DNA from: Bacteroidales bacterium | Lineage (GTDB): Bacteria; Bacteroidota; Bacteroidia; Bacteroidales; JAFGHD01 | Assembly: GCA_016927695.1 (NCBI GenBank) | Contig: JAFGME010000191.1 | Span: 1-33,904, forward strand | DNA: 33,904 bases | Direction: 5' to 3' | Shown: piece by piece, positions 24,418 to 33,018 of the stretch | Numbering within the stretch: position 1 is the first letter of the stretch | Layout of the letters: each line of letters starts with the position of its first letter | Translations under genes and position numbers: made by a program | Notes under the pieces: generated by a model | What the model saw: the letters and a program-made list of their open reading frames with translations, nothing else | Databases searched by the model: none | Told to the model about the DNA's origin: nothing

Positions 24418-27400
24418 ATGATACCCCTTTCACTGACCATAGAAGGCCTGTATTCGTACCGTAAAAGGCAGACCATTGATTTCGGCAGGCTCGCCGGCGC
24501 AGGGCTGTTCGGCATCTTCGGCGGGGTAGGCAGCGGTAAGTCTGCCATCCTTGAAGCCATCACCTTTGCCCTCTACGGAAAAACCGACCGCCTCAACGCC
24601 TCCGGCGACAGCAGGAACTACAATATGATGAACCTCAAGGCCAACGAGCTTTACATCGGGTTCATCTTCAGCGCAGGTACTGCCGGAGACACCTATCTGG
24701 CTACCGCCAAAAGCAGGCGCAACACCAAAAAATACGACGATGTGAAAACCATTGAAAGGGCCGCCTACAGAAAACAGGGCGGCGACTGGATACCGGTTGC
24801 CCTGGAAGAGATAGAAAACGTCATCGGCCTGAGTTATGAAAACTTCAAACGCACCGTCATCATCCCGCAGGGACAGTTCCAGGAGTTCCTGCAACTTGGA
24901 CTCAAAGAACGCACCGAAATGATGAAAGATCTGTTCAACCTGTCGAAATATGATCTCTTTTACAAAGTCACCGCGCTTGAAACTACAGGCAATGAAAAAA
25001 TCCAGCGCATTGAAGGGCAGTTGCTGCAGATTGGCGACATCTCCCCTGAACGGCTGGAAGAACTCATAATCAAACAAGAACAGCTTGAACAGCAGCTTTC
25101 AGCCCTCACAGAAAACCTGAAAATATTGCAAAAGCAGGAAACAGAGCTCGGAATATTGGCCGGACTGCACAGCAAACTTCAATCGCTGACCGAAAGCCGG
25201 GAATTGCTTCTCCAAAGAAAAGACGAAATCGGGGAAAAGGAAAAAAGGCTGCAGGATTATGAACGCTGCGTTCTCCACTTCAAAAATCCTGTGGAAGCAG
25301 TTTTTCAAAAAAAACAGAAAATTGCTCATCTTGCAAAGCAGCTTCAAACCGGCGAAGAAGAACTCCGGCGGCTGACAGAAGGTATGTATGCAATAAAAAG
25401 CAGGATCGACCGGCTGCAGCCCGAATTTGACAAAAAAGAACAGACGCTGACGGAAGCGGATGAATTGGGAAAGATGGCGCGCATCGCGGAGAACAGCGCT
25501 GCGATCGCCGAGATCAGAAGCCGCATGGCCAATGGCGAAAAGGCAGTGAACGAAGTGGCCCTGAAAATCGAAAAGCTTCAGAACGACATCAAAGAGGGAG
25601 CCGGTGAAATAAAAAGCCTGAAAAGCCGGATGCCTGATCAAAAGCTCCTCGCCGATGTCAAGTCATGGCATACACAGAATGCCGGGCTCGGCAAAGCCTG
25701 GAAAAAAATCACGGAAGAGGCGGCAGCCGGCGCTAAAGAGGTGGCCGCATGGCAGGAAAAACTAAAAAACCTGTACAAAGCGGAGCCTTTTACCGGGATA
25801 GATCCGGAGGCGACGCCCGGCGAAGCGTTGACCTTTTTAGAAGACAGGAAACTGGAATATAAAAACAAGATCGCTTTCATAGAAAAGGAGGCCGGTCGCC
25901 TGCAGGTGCAGGCAGGGCTCGAAAGCTACGCAAAGGCCCTCAGGGACGGCGAAGCCTGCCCCCTCTGCGGCTCCAGGGAACACCCGCATAAACTCGATGT
26001 AAAAAATGTTTCCGCCATATTAAACGACCTGGAAAAAGAAAAAAAGAAACTTGAATCGGCCGTGGCCGCCTGTGAACAGCACCTCCGCCTGTTGTTTCAA
26101 ACCGCCCAGGAGCTGAAGGGAAAAAAAGAAAACGCCGGAAAGCTTGAAAAGAAAAAAGGAGAAGCAACAGAAGAACTTAAGCGCCATGAAGCCCTGTTCC
26201 GCTGGAAAGAGTACCGCGACCCCGCCGTGCCGGAACATGCCTTCAGGCTGGCGCATGAACTGCAAACAAAAATAAGGCTGACAGAAGAGCGCATCGAACA
26301 GTGGATACAGGAAGCTGAAGCTGAATCGATCAAAAAAGAGAAATACCGTGAAAATTCAGACGCACTGAAAAACCACTTCGCCGGTTTACAAAAAGAGACA
26401 GAAGTGCTTACAGCTCAGATCAGGCATCTTGACACAAGCGATTACAAAGACCTCGCACCGGAAGTCATTCTGCTTGAGGCCTCCGGGAAAAGGGAAAAAG
26501 TTGCCGCAATGGAGAAAGAATACAACAACTTGAGGAAAGACCTGACGGCCATGCAGGAAAAAGCGGATGTGCTCAGGGGAAAATCGGAAGCCGGCAAACA
26601 GTTACTGGAAGAAGAACAGAAGCTGTGCCTCGGAATGGAAACGGAAACGGACAGGCTGCTTAAAGAAAAGGGTTATGAAAGCATCAGAGAAGTGAAGGAT
26701 ATTCTTGCGCTTCAGGTCGACACTGCCGGGGAGAGAAAGGAGATAGAACAATACAGGCAATCGCTTGCAGCTTCAGACAGCCGTTTAAGTTCTGTCAACG
26801 ATGATATTGCAGGCAGGAAATACGATGCCGTAGCGCACGGGGAACTCCGGTCCCGGATTGCGGGCATGGTTGAAAAGGCAGGAGAGGTGAACCGTGAAAG
26901 CGGAAAAACAAGCCACGACATTTCCCGCCTGCAAACGGAGCTCCGGAGGCAGGCCGCTCTGAATAAAGAGTTGGAGGCGCTCCGGTTAAGAGCAGAAGAT
27001 ATACGGACCCTGAAAAACCTGTTCAAGGCCAATGGTTTTGTGAAATACCTGAGCAGGGTGTACCTTCAGAACCTCTGCAAAATGGCCAATGAGAGATTTT
27101 ACCCCCTCACCAGGCAGAAACTCAGCCTGGAACTCACTGCCGACAACGGTTTCCAGGTGAGGGATTTCATGAACGGCGGCAAAGTGCGAAACATAAAGAC
27201 GCTCAGCGGCGGGCAGACCTTCCAGGCTGCCCTCTCCCTGGCCCTGGCCCTGGCAGGCAACATCCGTAGCCTCAGCGGTATGGAACGCAACTTCTTTTTC
27301 CTTGACGAAGGCTTCGGCACCCTTGACAAAGAATCGCTGAATATCGTGTTCGAAACCCTCACCTCGCTCAGGAAAGCCAAGCGCGTGGTTGGGGTGATCT

Positions 27401-27498
27401 CGCATGTGGAGGAGATGCAACAGGAGATAGAAAGCTACCTGTACATCCGCTCCGACGAAGAGAGGGGCAGTATCATACAGGCGAGCTGGGAGACATGA
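24418..27498 (+). CDS. sbcC: Exonuclease subunit SbcC (SMC-like ATPase)
   Basis: Walker A GGVGSGKSAILEAITFALYG, coiled coils, zinc hook CPLC, ABC signature TLSGGQTFQAALSLALALA, FFLDEGFGTLD; starts 3 nt after sbcD. Confidence 0.95.
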   Translation: MIPLSLTIEGLYSYRKRQTIDFGRLAGAGLFGIFGGVGSGKSAILEAITFALYGKTDRLNASGDSRNYNMMNLKANELYIGFIFSAGTAGDTYLATAKSRRNTKKYDDVKTIERAAYRKQGGDWIPVALEEIENVIGLSYENFKRTVIIPQGQFQEFLQLGLKERTEMMKDLFNLSKYDLFYKVTALETTGNEKIQRIEGQLLQIGDISPERLEELIIKQEQLEQQLSALTENLKILQKQETELGILAGLHSKLQSLTESRELLLQRKDEIGEKEKRLQDYERCVLHFKNPVEAVFQKKQKIAHLAKQLQTGEEELRRLTEGMYAIKSRIDRLQPEFDKKEQTLTEADELGKMARIAENSAAIAEIRSRMANGEKAVNEVALKIEKLQNDIKEGAGEIKSLKSRMPDQKLLADVKSWHTQNAGLGKAWKKITEEAAAGAKEVAAWQEKLKNLYKAEPFTGIDPEATPGEALTFLEDRKLEYKNKIAFIEKEAGRLQVQAGLESYAKALRDGEACPLCGSREHPHKLDVKNVSAILNDLEKEKKKLESAVAACEQHLRLLFQTAQELKGKKENAGKLEKKKGEATEELKRHEALFRWKEYRDPAVPEHAFRLAHELQTKIRLTEERIEQWIQEAEAESIKKEKYRENSDALKNHFAGLQKETEVLTAQIRHLDTSDYKDLAPEVILLEASGKREKVAAMEKEYNNLRKDLTAMQEKADVLRGKSEAGKQLLEEEQKLCLGMETETDRLLKEKGYESIREVKDILALQVDTAGERKEIEQYRQSLAASDSRLSSVNDDIAGRKYDAVAHGELRSRIAGMVEKAGEVNRESGKTSHDISRLQTELRRQAALNKELEALRLRAEDIRTLKNLFKANGFVKYLSRVYLQNLCKMANERFYPLTRQKLSLELTADNGFQVRDFMNGGKVRNIKTLSGGQTFQAALSLALALAGNIRSLSGMERNFFFLDEGFGTLDKESLNIVFETLTSLRKAKRVVGVISHVEEMQQEIESYLYIRSDEERGSIIQASWET

Positions 27499-27509
27499 GC
27501 GTGGAACAG

Positions 27510-27804
27510 GGTTGCACCGGCATAACAACCAGATTGCCTCCATATTGGTCTGTGCTTCTCTCTGGAGTCTCCGTGAACTGCGAATGCCATAACGGTAGCC
27601 GTAAAGATACAACTTCATCAGCTCACCGGGGTGAAAAGCCGGACGGCCTTCCTGTCTGCTCTCAGCATGGGTAAACCCGAAGCTCTTCATGTCAATGGCA
27701 TCCACAAACAGGTCAACCGCACGCACAAAAGACTTCTTGTTAACCGACTCTTCGAGGTTTAGAATCAGCACCTGGTCTCTGTCTGTGCCTTGTATGTGTT
27801 GCAT
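27510..27804 (-). pseudogene. Truncated IS1182-family transposase (N-terminal ~96 aa only)
   Basis: MQHIQGTDRDQVLILNLEESVNKKSFVRAVDLFVDAIDMKSFGF...GRPAFHPGELMKLYLYGYRYGIRSSRRLQREAQTNMEAIWLL; homology stops ~12 nt from the sbcC stop and the frame continues antisense into sbcC. Confidence 0.85.
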
Positions 27805-28323: not shown

Positions 28324-29799
28324 CTAGATACTCTTTAAAAACCTTTCGGCTGTTAACAAATAGGCATTCTGCTTTTCGTGATTCATTTTATCAAAACTCC
28401 TGACCAACATGCATAATCTTGGGTTTTGCAAAAAGAAATCCCGGTGTGTGTGCATAAATCGCCAAAATAAACCATCCCATACTTCCTGCCATTCGCCTTT
28501 TTTATAATCACTCATTTTCATGAGATAGTTGCTTCCGCTGATGTAGGGTTTAGTGGACATCATTCCGCCATCAGCAAACTGACTCATACCGTAAACATTC
28601 GGAACCATCACCCAGTCATAGGCATCGATAAACAGTTCCATAAACCATCGATAGACTTCATCGGGATCAAATTCACACAACAACATAAAATTACCTAATA
28701 CCATTAATCGTTCAATATGATGACAATAGCCGGTATCCAGCACTTTTTTAATAGTACTGTCTAAGGGCTCTATTCCTGTAGTTCCATTCCAGAACGAAGC
28801 AGGAATTTTACGTGTAAAGCCCCAGTAGTTCATAGTCCTTTCTTCATTTCCTTTCAATTCGTAAACTGCCCTGATAAATTCTCGCCAACCTATAATTTGC
28901 CTGATAAAACCCTCTAATGAATTTAACGGTATTTTATGATTGCCGGCATATTGCAATGCCTCATCAATAATGAATTGCGGTGTTAGCAGACCCACATTCA
29001 GCATGGGTGTTAACACACTGTGGTGTAGAAAATTTTCATTTGTAACGATGGCATCTTCATACGCACCAAACTCTGAAAACCGGAATTTAAAGAAAGTTTG
29101 CAACCAGTTCTTGCTGTCGGAAAAGTTGGTTGGATAAATAAAATCAGCATTCAATTTTCCATAGTTTGCGGCAAAATATTTTTGAGTATAGGTTATGGCT
29201 TCATCATTAAAATGATTGGGTTCTAAGAAATCAATTTTCGGGGGTGTTTTTCCTTTGGGGTATTTTAAGCGATTTTCATCATCATAAGTCCATTTTCCAC
29301 CCATTGGTTTCTGGTTGATCTCTAATAATATGTTTCTGGTTTGGCGTTGATACTTATAAAAATCAGTTTGAAACATCCGCTTTTTGTCTGAAAAGTAGGT
29401 TTCAACATCTTTGGAAGAACATAAAAAATAAGCTGAACGATTTTTCCCTGATTTTACATCCGCAGCCTTGCATGCCTTTTCTATCCTTTGTTCCAGCCAG
29501 CAATCCGTTGTGTCGATATATTCAAAATCATTAATGCCAACGGTCCTTAAATGTGGTATTAACTTTCTAACATCAGCTAACGCATTGAATGAATCGATAT
29601 AAACAACTTCAATATTATTTGATTGAAGATAGCTTTCATAAAACTTCATACTGGCCCTGTGAAAAGCAATTTTCCATTTATGAAAATTATATTGCTTAAA
29701 GAACAACCACTCTTCAACTAAATAAATGGTATCGCATTTGGACACAAGCGGGTTGTGCTCAAACAATTGATGCGGAAACAGGATGCCAGTTTTATTCAT
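28324..29799 (-). CDS. Cryptochrome/photolyase-related protein of the FeS-BCP (PhrB/DPRP) type, without the Fe-S cysteine motif
   Basis: [109 protein letters not shown]. Confidence 0.92.
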
Positions 29800-29999: not shown

Positions 30000-31214
30000 T
30001 TATATTCCTTTAATTATTTCTTCGGCAGATCTTCTTCCGCTTTCCATTGCACCGTTAATTGACCCTTGCAACAAATAATCGCCGCAATAAAACACGCCTT
30101 CAGAAGACGTTGGTTTGTATTTTTTTTCAAAGTTTATCGCAGGCAAGGCCTCCCTGATAGTGTATGATTTTACCAGCTTCCAATTGGCTGCTTCCAAACC
30201 AAAAATTGATTTCAAATCCTCCATGAAAACATCCGCTTTAGTATGAATTCCATTGGCGGAGACTGAAATCAGATGTTTTCCATTTTGGGAGTAATTTGGC
30301 GCTACGTTGCTAATCATCACCACATTGTTAATTATTCGATTTGGGTTTGCATTGAGTATTACGTGTTTCGTGTCAATTGGCAGTTTTTCTGCTTCATAAT
30401 AGTTGTTGGTTACGCTGTGATATTCTACATTTTTGTTCATATTGCAAGCCAAAACCACTTTGTCAAATGATTCCTGTTTCCCGTCACTTTTAGTAACAGA
30501 CTTACTGTCGCATTTCAATACTTTTGTATTATATCGTATTTTGTCGGCTCCAATATAATCTACCAATTGCATAGGAATAGCACCCATTCCTTCCTTAGGG
30601 AGTGCAGCCCCCGCCTCGGCAAACATTTTAAAAGTAAACCGAAGCATTCTACTATCCGTTTCTAATGTATTTTCAAGAAATACCCCCTGATAAAAGGGAA
30701 TCCAAAAATCTTTTATCATTCGTTCACTGAACCCCAATTCTTTTAAATACTCTAAAGAACTAATGGTTTTTTTTCTGTTAAAAATATCCTCAATGCTTAA
30801 CCGGCTTAAGGTAAATTTCAGTTTCAATAATATTAACTTGTCAATTAAGGAGCCAGGGCCATTTACTACCGTTTTTAACAAGGCCGTAAATCCATTTCCC
30901 GGGCCATAAAATGGGATTTGTTTCCCGTTTTTGTAGATTAAAGAACCTTTATGAAACCGCTGCAATTGCAAATTGACATAGTCTAAAACTTTTTTCGTTT
31001 CGGGATATGCGGGCAATAAAACCTGAAAACCCCTATCCAACTGAAAGCCATCGAAGCGGTCTGTTTTCAGTTTTCCACCTGCTTTCTCAGAGGATTCAAA
31101 AATGGTAATATCGTTAATGCCGTTTTTTTTGAGATACCAGGCGCAGGTAAGCCCTGCAAGTCCAGCGCCAACAATACCTGTTTTCATTTTTTTTCTGTTT
31201 AAGCTCATTTTCAA
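30000..31214 (-). CDS. NAD(P)/FAD-dependent amine oxidase / protoporphyrinogen-oxidase-like protein
   Basis: GIVGAGLAGLTCAWYLKKNGINDITIFESSEKAGGKLKTDRFDGFQLDRGFQVL dinucleotide-binding motif; C-terminal GVFYCGDYLLQGSINGAMESGRRSAEEI. Confidence 0.9.
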   Translation of the reverse strand: MKMSLNRKKMKTGIVGAGLAGLTCAWYLKKNGINDITIFESSEKAGGKLKTDRFDGFQLDRGFQVLLPAYPETKKVLDYVNLQLQRFHKGSLIYKNGKQIPFYGPGNGFTALLKTVVNGPGSLIDKLILLKLKFTLSRLSIEDIFNRKKTISSLEYLKELGFSERMIKDFWIPFYQGVFLENTLETDSRMLRFTFKMFAEAGAALPKEGMGAIPMQLVDYIGADKIRYNTKVLKCDSKSVTKSDGKQESFDKVVLACNMNKNVEYHSVTNNYYEAEKLPIDTKHVILNANPNRIINNVVMISNVAPNYSQNGKHLISVSANGIHTKADVFMEDLKSIFGLEAANWKLVKSYTIREALPAINFEKKYKPTSSEGVFYCGDYLLQGSINGAMESGRRSAEEIIKGI

Positions 31215-31304: not shown

Positions 31305-32435
31305 TTATGGTTTTGCATAAGGCAAGCGGCCTATTTCGGTGGATTTAAAATAAGCATCAAGCCCCTGACTGATTAATACTTCAGATGCTGATAAATTTAC
31401 AAATCCATCCTCTGCTATCCAATCTCTTGGTTCTTTGGTTCCCTTATAGCCAATATTGAGAGGATGTTCCTTGAAATAAATATTCTCCACCTGCCATGTG
31501 TCGGTAAACGATTGAAACGAACCTGCAAAAACCTGAATACCCGGTATATTTTCACTCAATGCCAGCATAAGATCAATACACTTTTTACTTATCGGATATT
31601 GAGAAAAAAAATCAGGCTCAATCAACAGAATCCGGTTGCCCTTTTCTTCCAAATGCCACAGCGGGTCGAGGTTATAATAGTTATAAATAAAAGTTGGCAA
31701 TTCAACATCAATTTTTGGAATTGATGCAGAAGATAAAAATATTTCAGGCACAAACTTTTTGGTAAGCAGAAATGAATCAGGCGTTTCCATTTGCTCCAAC
31801 TCTTCATACGATACATCCAAAAAGGCGTTGGATTGGTTGGTTAATGCGTACTTGTTAATGTTTTCCTGATTGGCATAGTATTTTTTAGAGCTGTTTGCGC
31901 CAGCTACCCACTGCCAACTGCAGGTGTTGCTTGCCCAGTCGCCATCCAGCAAATGATAATACAACCATTGCGAAGGGTTCAGCCAGTGCGATTTACCAAT
32001 GTTGCACACCAGCGAAGCCGTGTACATCCGGCAGGGATTGTGCATATACCCGATGCGGTAGATCTGCTGTATCGCCTCATCAATCGCATTAATCCCGGTT
32101 TTACCTTCTAATACTGCAACAGAAATTTCATAATTTGATACCGGAACCTGAGCTTGTTTTATTTCCCGATTTAAATCTTTTACCTGACCTACCCGTTGAA
32201 AATAATCACGCCAGCAAAGCTCTTTTACAAAGGACTCTATTTCCGGAATTTTGTATCCTTTTGCCAAAACAGTCTCCAGCACTTGCCTGGTGCTTATAAC
32301 ACCTCTCGAAATGCAGGGCGATAAATACGTGACTGCACCATCCACATAGTTCCTGGTTTTTCGATACTCCACCGGATCAATCCGATCTGCTTTTTCGATT
32401 ATCGCAGTATAGTCGGTTGCAAATTGAGGTTCCAT
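31305..32435 (-). CDS. Photolyase/cryptochrome FAD-binding domain protein with C-terminal Rossmann-like extension
   Basis: RNYVDGAVTYLSPCISRGVISTRQV, ELCWRDYFQRV, GYMHNPCRMYTASLV, LLDGDWASNTCSWQWVAGANSSKKYYANQ; no N-terminal antenna domain. Confidence 0.9.
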   Translation of the reverse strand: MEPQFATDYTAIIEKADRIDPVEYRKTRNYVDGAVTYLSPCISRGVISTRQVLETVLAKGYKIPEIESFVKELCWRDYFQRVGQVKDLNREIKQAQVPVSNYEISVAVLEGKTGINAIDEAIQQIYRIGYMHNPCRMYTASLVCNIGKSHWLNPSQWLYYHLLDGDWASNTCSWQWVAGANSSKKYYANQENINKYALTNQSNAFLDVSYEELEQMETPDSFLLTKKFVPEIFLSSASIPKIDVELPTFIYNYYNLDPLWHLEEKGNRILLIEPDFFSQYPISKKCIDLMLALSENIPGIQVFAGSFQSFTDTWQVENIYFKEHPLNIGYKGTKEPRDWIAEDGFVNLSASEVLISQGLDAYFKSTEIGRLPYAKP

Positions 32436-32442
32436 TTACCGC

Positions 32443-33018
32443 TTACTTCTTTCTGGCAATGTCATATTCAACATCTTTAACAACTTTCAGTAAGAATTTT
32501 TTTCTTGTTTCATCGGAGACAAATGGTACGGACCAAAATTGCCTGGTCCTGGTTTTAAACCAACCAAAAACAAAAGAATAAACCCCCATTACAAGTCTGA
32601 GCTTTACAGAGTTAACATATAGCGTAAGCACGGGTAGAGCAGGTGCGCCGTGTGTCAGATAGGTTCTTACCTTTTTGTCTGTTAAAAACGGTTTTGGATA
32701 AGCAAAGGTTTTTGTAATCGGAATGAATTTATAAGCATATCCGGGAATTAATACCTGATCAAAAAATGATTCCAGCAAAGGCGTACATCTGAACCACCAG
32801 ACAGGTGAAATAATATAAATCCGATTTGTTTTTGCAATTAGTTCTCTGTAAAAATTAACTTTCTGATCATCTCCGAACACATTAAATTTATCTTCATATA
32901 AGTCGATGGTATCTACATTTTCTTTATGGTCAATTAAGGTATTATAAACTGTTTTGAAAATCCCATTGTGACAAAAGCTTTGTTTATCAGGGTGTGCAAT
33001 AATTATTAAGTTGTTCAT
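32443..33018 (-). CDS. NAD(P)H dehydrogenase (quinone)/flavodoxin-fold protein (KefF/MdaB-like)
   Basis: NLIIIAHPDKQSFCHNGIF, RIYIISPVWWFRCTPLLESFFDQVLIPGYAY. Confidence 0.85.
   Translation of the reverse strand: MNNLIIIAHPDKQSFCHNGIFKTVYNTLIDHKENVDTIDLYEDKFNVFGDDQKVNFYRELIAKTNRIYIISPVWWFRCTPLLESFFDQVLIPGYAYKFIPITKTFAYPKPFLTDKKVRTYLTHGAPALPVLTLYVNSVKLRLVMGVYSFVFGWFKTRTRQFWSVPFVSDETRKKFLLKVVKDVEYDIARKK

Follow-up and report, generated by a model that had tools for sequence, protein, structure and literature searches.

A probable Bacteroidota member of the inverted-topology photolyases with a flavin-reductase tail

Gene content of the photolyase locus

The window, i.e., the whole 33,904-nucleotide stretch that was analysed (Bacteroidales bacterium, assembly GCA_016927695.1, contig JAFGME010000191.1), carries on its minus strand a complete ORF of 376 aa with an ATG start (31305..32435), annotated here as an inverted-topology, NewPHL/SPL-like photolyase with a flavin-reductase tail. 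Pfam gives a single significant match, FAD_binding_7 (PF03441; residues 69-188, E 4e-21), and the PDB sequences that it matches, from photolyases and cryptochromes, align over their FAD domains only. The PF03441 match, an alignment with the E. coli photolyase (1dnp) and the conserved columns of 71 relatives place the catalytic FAD-binding helical domain at residues ~20-200 (31836..32378, minus strand), confirming that this photolyase-like ORF starts straight with the FAD domain. Pfam searches detected neither the N-terminal antenna domain of class I CPD photolyases (PF00875) nor the DPRP N-terminal domain (PF04244) in the ORF. The initial annotation had read the final ~130 aa as one antenna domain, which they are not: the surviving part of a C-terminal alpha/beta antenna-like domain (residues ~243-341; 31413..31709, minus strand; delimited by AlphaFold2 and hhalign) is followed by a 35-aa C-terminal remnant of a Flavin_Reduct protein, fused in frame (residues ~342-376; 31308..31412, minus strand).

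The gene directly upstream encodes a flavodoxin-fold NAD(P)H oxidoreductase (32443..33018, minus strand; PF02525, E 8e-18), and therefore no antenna domain precedes the ORF. A flavin-containing amine oxidoreductase (30000..31214, minus strand; PF01593, E 2e-36) lies between the ORF and a second photolyase (28324..29799, minus strand) of conventional order, with the DPRP antenna first (PF04244, E 2e-49) and the FAD domain (PF03441) last. This neighbour, a DPRP or prokaryotic (6-4) photolyase, belongs to the same superfamily and gene cluster as the ORF but differs from it in domain order and in its divergent FAD domain. In the C-terminal half of the DPRP neighbour only C359 and C375 are conserved in most of 42 relatives, and therefore the four Fe-S ligands of FeS-BCP appear to be missing from it.

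Synteny placed the DPRP photolyase in the same light-repair cluster in relatives. Among 49 loci with room, a DPRP photolyase was present in 32, and a member of the PHR family, a second photolyase family that bears PF00875, in 19, within 2.7 kb downstream. No counterpart of the amine oxidoreductase was found at related loci, and it showed no homology to the oxidoreductase adjoining the FAD-first gene of Asticcacaulis. This Asticcacaulis oxidoreductase, of the FAD/NAD(P)-binding type, is encoded directly upstream of the FAD-first gene. Other neighbours of FAD-first photolyase genes are a DUF3429 gene in Asticcacaulis and Novosphingobium (L132, L133, L086) and an AarF/ABC1/UbiB-family kinase gene in Ruegeria and Peteryoungia (L084, L087).

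Around 27 kb into the window, G+C content drops from about 0.50 to 0.36-0.42. Beside this fall is an ORF with a transposase domain (26986-27804, minus strand; DUF772, PF05598), which overlaps the end of a long plus-strand ORF (24418-27498). Given the fall and the adjoining transposase-domain fragment, the light-repair cluster was probably acquired by horizontal transfer.

Relatives and the fused end of the window copy

Scanning 84,980 species genomes gave 80 loci with relatives that were kept, 78 of them with usable ORFs. The relatives are 51-76% identical to the window ORF and nearly all are labelled Bacteroidota. The FAD-first order first noted for a single ORF was found in all 78, which share the start position and have the FAD domain followed by a short alpha/beta domain, mostly within 361-374 aa. 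Their starts are mostly preceded by little open frame, which speaks against the antenna domain in an upstream frame that the initial annotation had considered for related genomes. The reversed domain order is thus well supported. Of 396 Bacteroidota genomes drawn, 19 gave matches at E <= 1e-40, a count that includes the genome of the window and a short homologue. The inverted-order group is common in this phylum. The short homologue (L131 1396-2187, genome G340) is a 263-aa protein with an FAD domain only and CxxC-type cysteines, and resembles the short Fe-S SPL type. Closer to the window, the nearby genomes searched held, beyond its own genome, one clear orthologue, in another family; none was found in the one same-genus genome searched.

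The second domain is present in intact relatives, as an alpha/beta domain that is capping or antenna-like, and is truncated in the window copy. The window copy ends at model position 343, whereas the other close homologues in the Bacteroidota draw (17 of 17) reach positions 360-364. Intact relatives terminate in ...GYYPSFFAYWKKxEK instead of the flavin-reductase tail, and S350, F351, F352 and W355 of this terminal SFFxxW helix, invariant in 71 of 71 aligned relatives, are missing from the window copy. Over residues 339-376 the window copy matches the C-terminal end of a Flavin_Reduct protein of ~202 aa (PF01613); residues ~342-376 correspond to the final 35 aa of that flavin reductase, with 78% identity to the C-terminus of the one encoded at a related locus (L004:5106-5711). 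The gene for this protein directly follows the photolyase and is co-directional with it at 29 of the 72 loci that have room for it; at five loci it lies just upstream.

At the nucleotide level, photolyase similarity stops near base 1030 of the gene and flavin-reductase similarity starts near base 1024, with a short GAxGATG stretch common to both source genes at the junction. This overlap of breakpoints is consistent with the loss of about 570 bp between the 3' ends of the photolyase and flavin-reductase genes, or with an assembly error. The fusion may have arisen in assembly or binning, the true genome having an intact photolyase followed by an intact flavin reductase, a possibility we take seriously while judging it unlikely. 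The genome is fragmented (317 contigs, 5.8% contamination), the two source genes share those few bases around the junction, and the gene has been under purifying selection relative to its closest intact relative, L001 (dN 0.15, dS 1.1). Against an artefact, the genome search recovered neither a second copy nor any other part of the flavin reductase, only three other Flavin_Reduct proteins. In L001, moreover, this gene has separately shrunk to a remnant of ~70 aa between the photolyase and the DPRP photolyase (L001 5105-5320), so that erosion of the flavin-reductase gene is natural in this lineage.

With the terminal SFFxxW helix lost, the window copy is a truncated chimera, probably with impaired function. 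It also has P at the position of H134, which is invariant in relatives. Relaxed selection before the fusion was not evident, in that conserved-column deviations lay within the range of the relatives and dN/dS against L001 was about 0.14, with dS near saturation; given this ratio, function, if lost, would have been lost recently. At another locus (L055 18-1580), a 521-aa open frame joins photolyase and flavin reductase, but the photolyase C-terminus is out of frame in it, so that a frameshift or sequencing error seems likelier than a true fusion or bifunctional enzyme.

Fold and origin of the C-terminal domain

AlphaFold2 modelled L001 (71 sequences) with a mean pLDDT of 95.5 and pTM of 0.92. 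Residues 248-365 of the model form strands at 248-252, 267-272, 300-304, 319-322 and 333-335, with helices between them and a last helix at 351-365. The C-terminal domain modelled by itself had identical elements (pLDDT 93), and its conservation across aligned relatives is near the family average. The whole model matched solved photolyases over ~200-250 columns with a TM of about 0.45, which is what one would see if the FAD domains alone could align in sequence order, and Foldseek against viral structures gave partial matches to conventional photolyases only. Structure prediction thus bore out an alpha/beta fold for the C-terminal part, and Foldseek of the isolated domain gave no PDB match below E 0.001.

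The local profile-profile comparison with 10 other families ranked the antenna-bearing DPRP and PHR families first and second (scores of 26.5 and 25.9); among the eight unrelated families the highest score was 17.9. Columns 25-74 of the C-terminal domain aligned on DPRP antenna columns 23-80 with a pairwise P of 0.002 (hhalign), which reproduces the by-eye alignment of the tail with the antenna domain of the neighbouring photolyase. Strands and helices were in register, and the matches, which are weak, had a pairwise P of 0.001-0.002 against the antenna domains alone. In a Deinococcus FAD-first homologue (L085), PF00875 matches after the FAD domain, at residues 301-395, with an E of 0.001, below the Pfam cut-off. 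Because the profile ranking, the in-register alignment and the Deinococcus match point the same way, the C-terminal domain is likely to be a relocated antenna domain.

The same domain might instead have arisen independently as a HUP or Rossmann-like cap, which we regard as rather improbable. Consistent with such an origin, searches of the domain against Pfam and PDB sequences returned no match, and its best Foldseek matches were phosphopantetheine adenylyltransferase and UspA-type folds (E about 0.07), which belong, like photolyase antenna domains, to the HUP-like fold class. An independent cap sits poorly, however, with the in-register ranking of both antenna families above all unrelated ones and with PF00875 following the FAD domain in Deinococcus. 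As to the permuted photolyase of the initial annotation, FAD first and an antenna-like alpha/beta domain last is what the 78 relatives, the model and the weak in-register profile matches indicate; nothing here supports a different antenna site or antenna chromophore, and the architecture itself is not new.

Place in the photolyase family and likely function

Reversed architectures were published in 2020-2022. PMC13274461 and PMC9426592 describe NewPHL/SPL proteins as having inverted topology and repairing CPDs in single-stranded DNA, the latter attributing single-strand repair by the NewPHLs of Dinoroseobacter shibae and Methylobacterium mesophilicum to Emmerich et al. 2020; the name SPL comes with Xu et al. 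2021, who, as reported in PMC9649867, placed short photolyase-like proteins close to where the whole photolyase/cryptochrome family originated. Reversed order is also described for cyanobacterial Phr4/5, Phr6 and Phr7. As presented in PMC9426592, Phr4/Phr5 and Phr6 likewise have the FAD domain first and the photolyase domain last, but differ in carrying four Fe-S cysteines, in having a photolyase domain that InterPro recognises, and in being splittable into two genes.

The FAD-first alphaproteobacterial proteins used here (Ruegeria, Novosphingobium, Peteryoungia, Niveispirillum and Asticcacaulis in the HMM comparison) are proxies for the characterised NewPHLs (A8LJA9 and M7YZC8, accessions in PMC13274461). 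With the FAD-domain HMM, Deinococcus and G340 scored 137-143 bits, the alphaproteobacterial proteins 95-116, conventional class I-type photolyases 58-80, and the DPRP and PHR families 16-35. FAD-first proteins thus score highest, which favours a grouping with NewPHL/SPL over one with the conventional classes. The full-length profile matched a set of three alphaproteobacterial proteins and one Deinococcus protein over 324 columns (probability 100%, E 2.5e-41). The window gene and its relatives resemble NewPHL/SPL in having an N-terminal FAD domain, a C-terminal second domain and no N-terminal antenna domain, in length (~365-410 aa), and in conserving FAD and CPD-site residues without Phr7-type Fe-S cysteines; C144 is the sole cysteine among the invariant columns of the 71 aligned relatives, versus the four Fe-S cysteines of FeS-BCP. 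They differ in that the C-terminal domain of the Bacteroidota clade is shorter (~125 aa) and gave no direct profile match to that of the alphaproteobacterial proxies, its element order being alike by eye, in that Bacteroidota members often lie beside a flavin reductase, and in the missing terminal helix of the window copy. The Deinococcus proteins (L085, L137) also place the FAD domain first and are among the nearest by HMM score, but are ~457 aa long, with extra cysteines past the FAD domain and the sub-threshold C-terminal PF00875. Class I CPD photolyases (E. coli, Thermus) are alike in FAD domain and CPD-contact residues, and have their antenna domain at the N-terminus.

Taken together, the window gene very probably belongs, as a Bacteroidota member, to the inverted-topology photolyases (NewPHL/SPL), its end having been fused to a flavin reductase, probably by deletion. 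In the FAD-domain tree the Bacteroidota clade forms one group (92/99), and the poorly resolved deep branches do not join it to the alphaproteobacterial clade. It is conceivable, and in our estimate doubtful, that the clade is a separate inverted-photolyase branch with a minimal, cap-like C-terminal domain, paired with a dedicated flavin reductase, and that the window fusion possibly survives as a functional chimera with a new C-terminus.

The invariant residues Y24, W75, R76, N133, D164, D166, N170, W174 and W176 align (1dnp) with E. coli Y222, W277, R278, N341, D372, D374, N378, W382 and W384, respectively. In the same alignment, the nearly invariant E72 corresponds to E274 and the invariant W151 to W359; the position of E. 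coli W306 is not conserved in the family. We take these aligned E. coli positions to be FAD-binding or CPD-contact residues. Their conservation favours the view that intact members bind FAD and repair CPDs; judging from sequence, these members are therefore most likely light-dependent CPD photolyases. By analogy, single-stranded DNA is probably preferred. That the protein is a cryptochrome-like sensor and not a repair enzyme appears distinctly improbable: sequence alone does not separate photolyases from cryptochromes, and the invariant H134 is P in the window copy, but the family conserves the CPD-contact residues and its gene is linked to other photolyases. Least tenable by far is a conventional photolyase that lost its N-terminal antenna by frameshift or truncation and has an unrelated C-terminal domain, which fits with Pfam naming only the FAD domain but is contradicted by the 78 relatives of common start and order, which rule out a frameshift, by the flavodoxin-fold oxidoreductase as the upstream gene and by the conservation, confident fold and in-register antenna matches of the C-terminal domain.

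For a light-dependent CPD photolyase, the N-terminal helical domain of intact members would bind FAD, blue or UV-A light would excite the reduced FADH-, and an electron would pass to a flipped-in cyclobutane pyrimidine dimer, with the antenna-like alpha/beta domain packed on the FAD domain. The likely substrate, single-stranded DNA, and the repair chemistry are drawn from the published NewPHL/SPL class. The flavin reductase may help to supply or keep reduced flavin, as its gene linkage suggests. In the genome of the window, a deletion would have fused the two genes, and the product, without the terminal helix, would probably be impaired.

What is new is the gene neighbourhood of the Bacteroidota clade and the chimeric, probably impaired window copy. 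With its reduced C-terminal domain, this clade offers material to test the origin of that domain, and its frequent flavin-reductase neighbour offers material to test what reduces the flavin in the cell.
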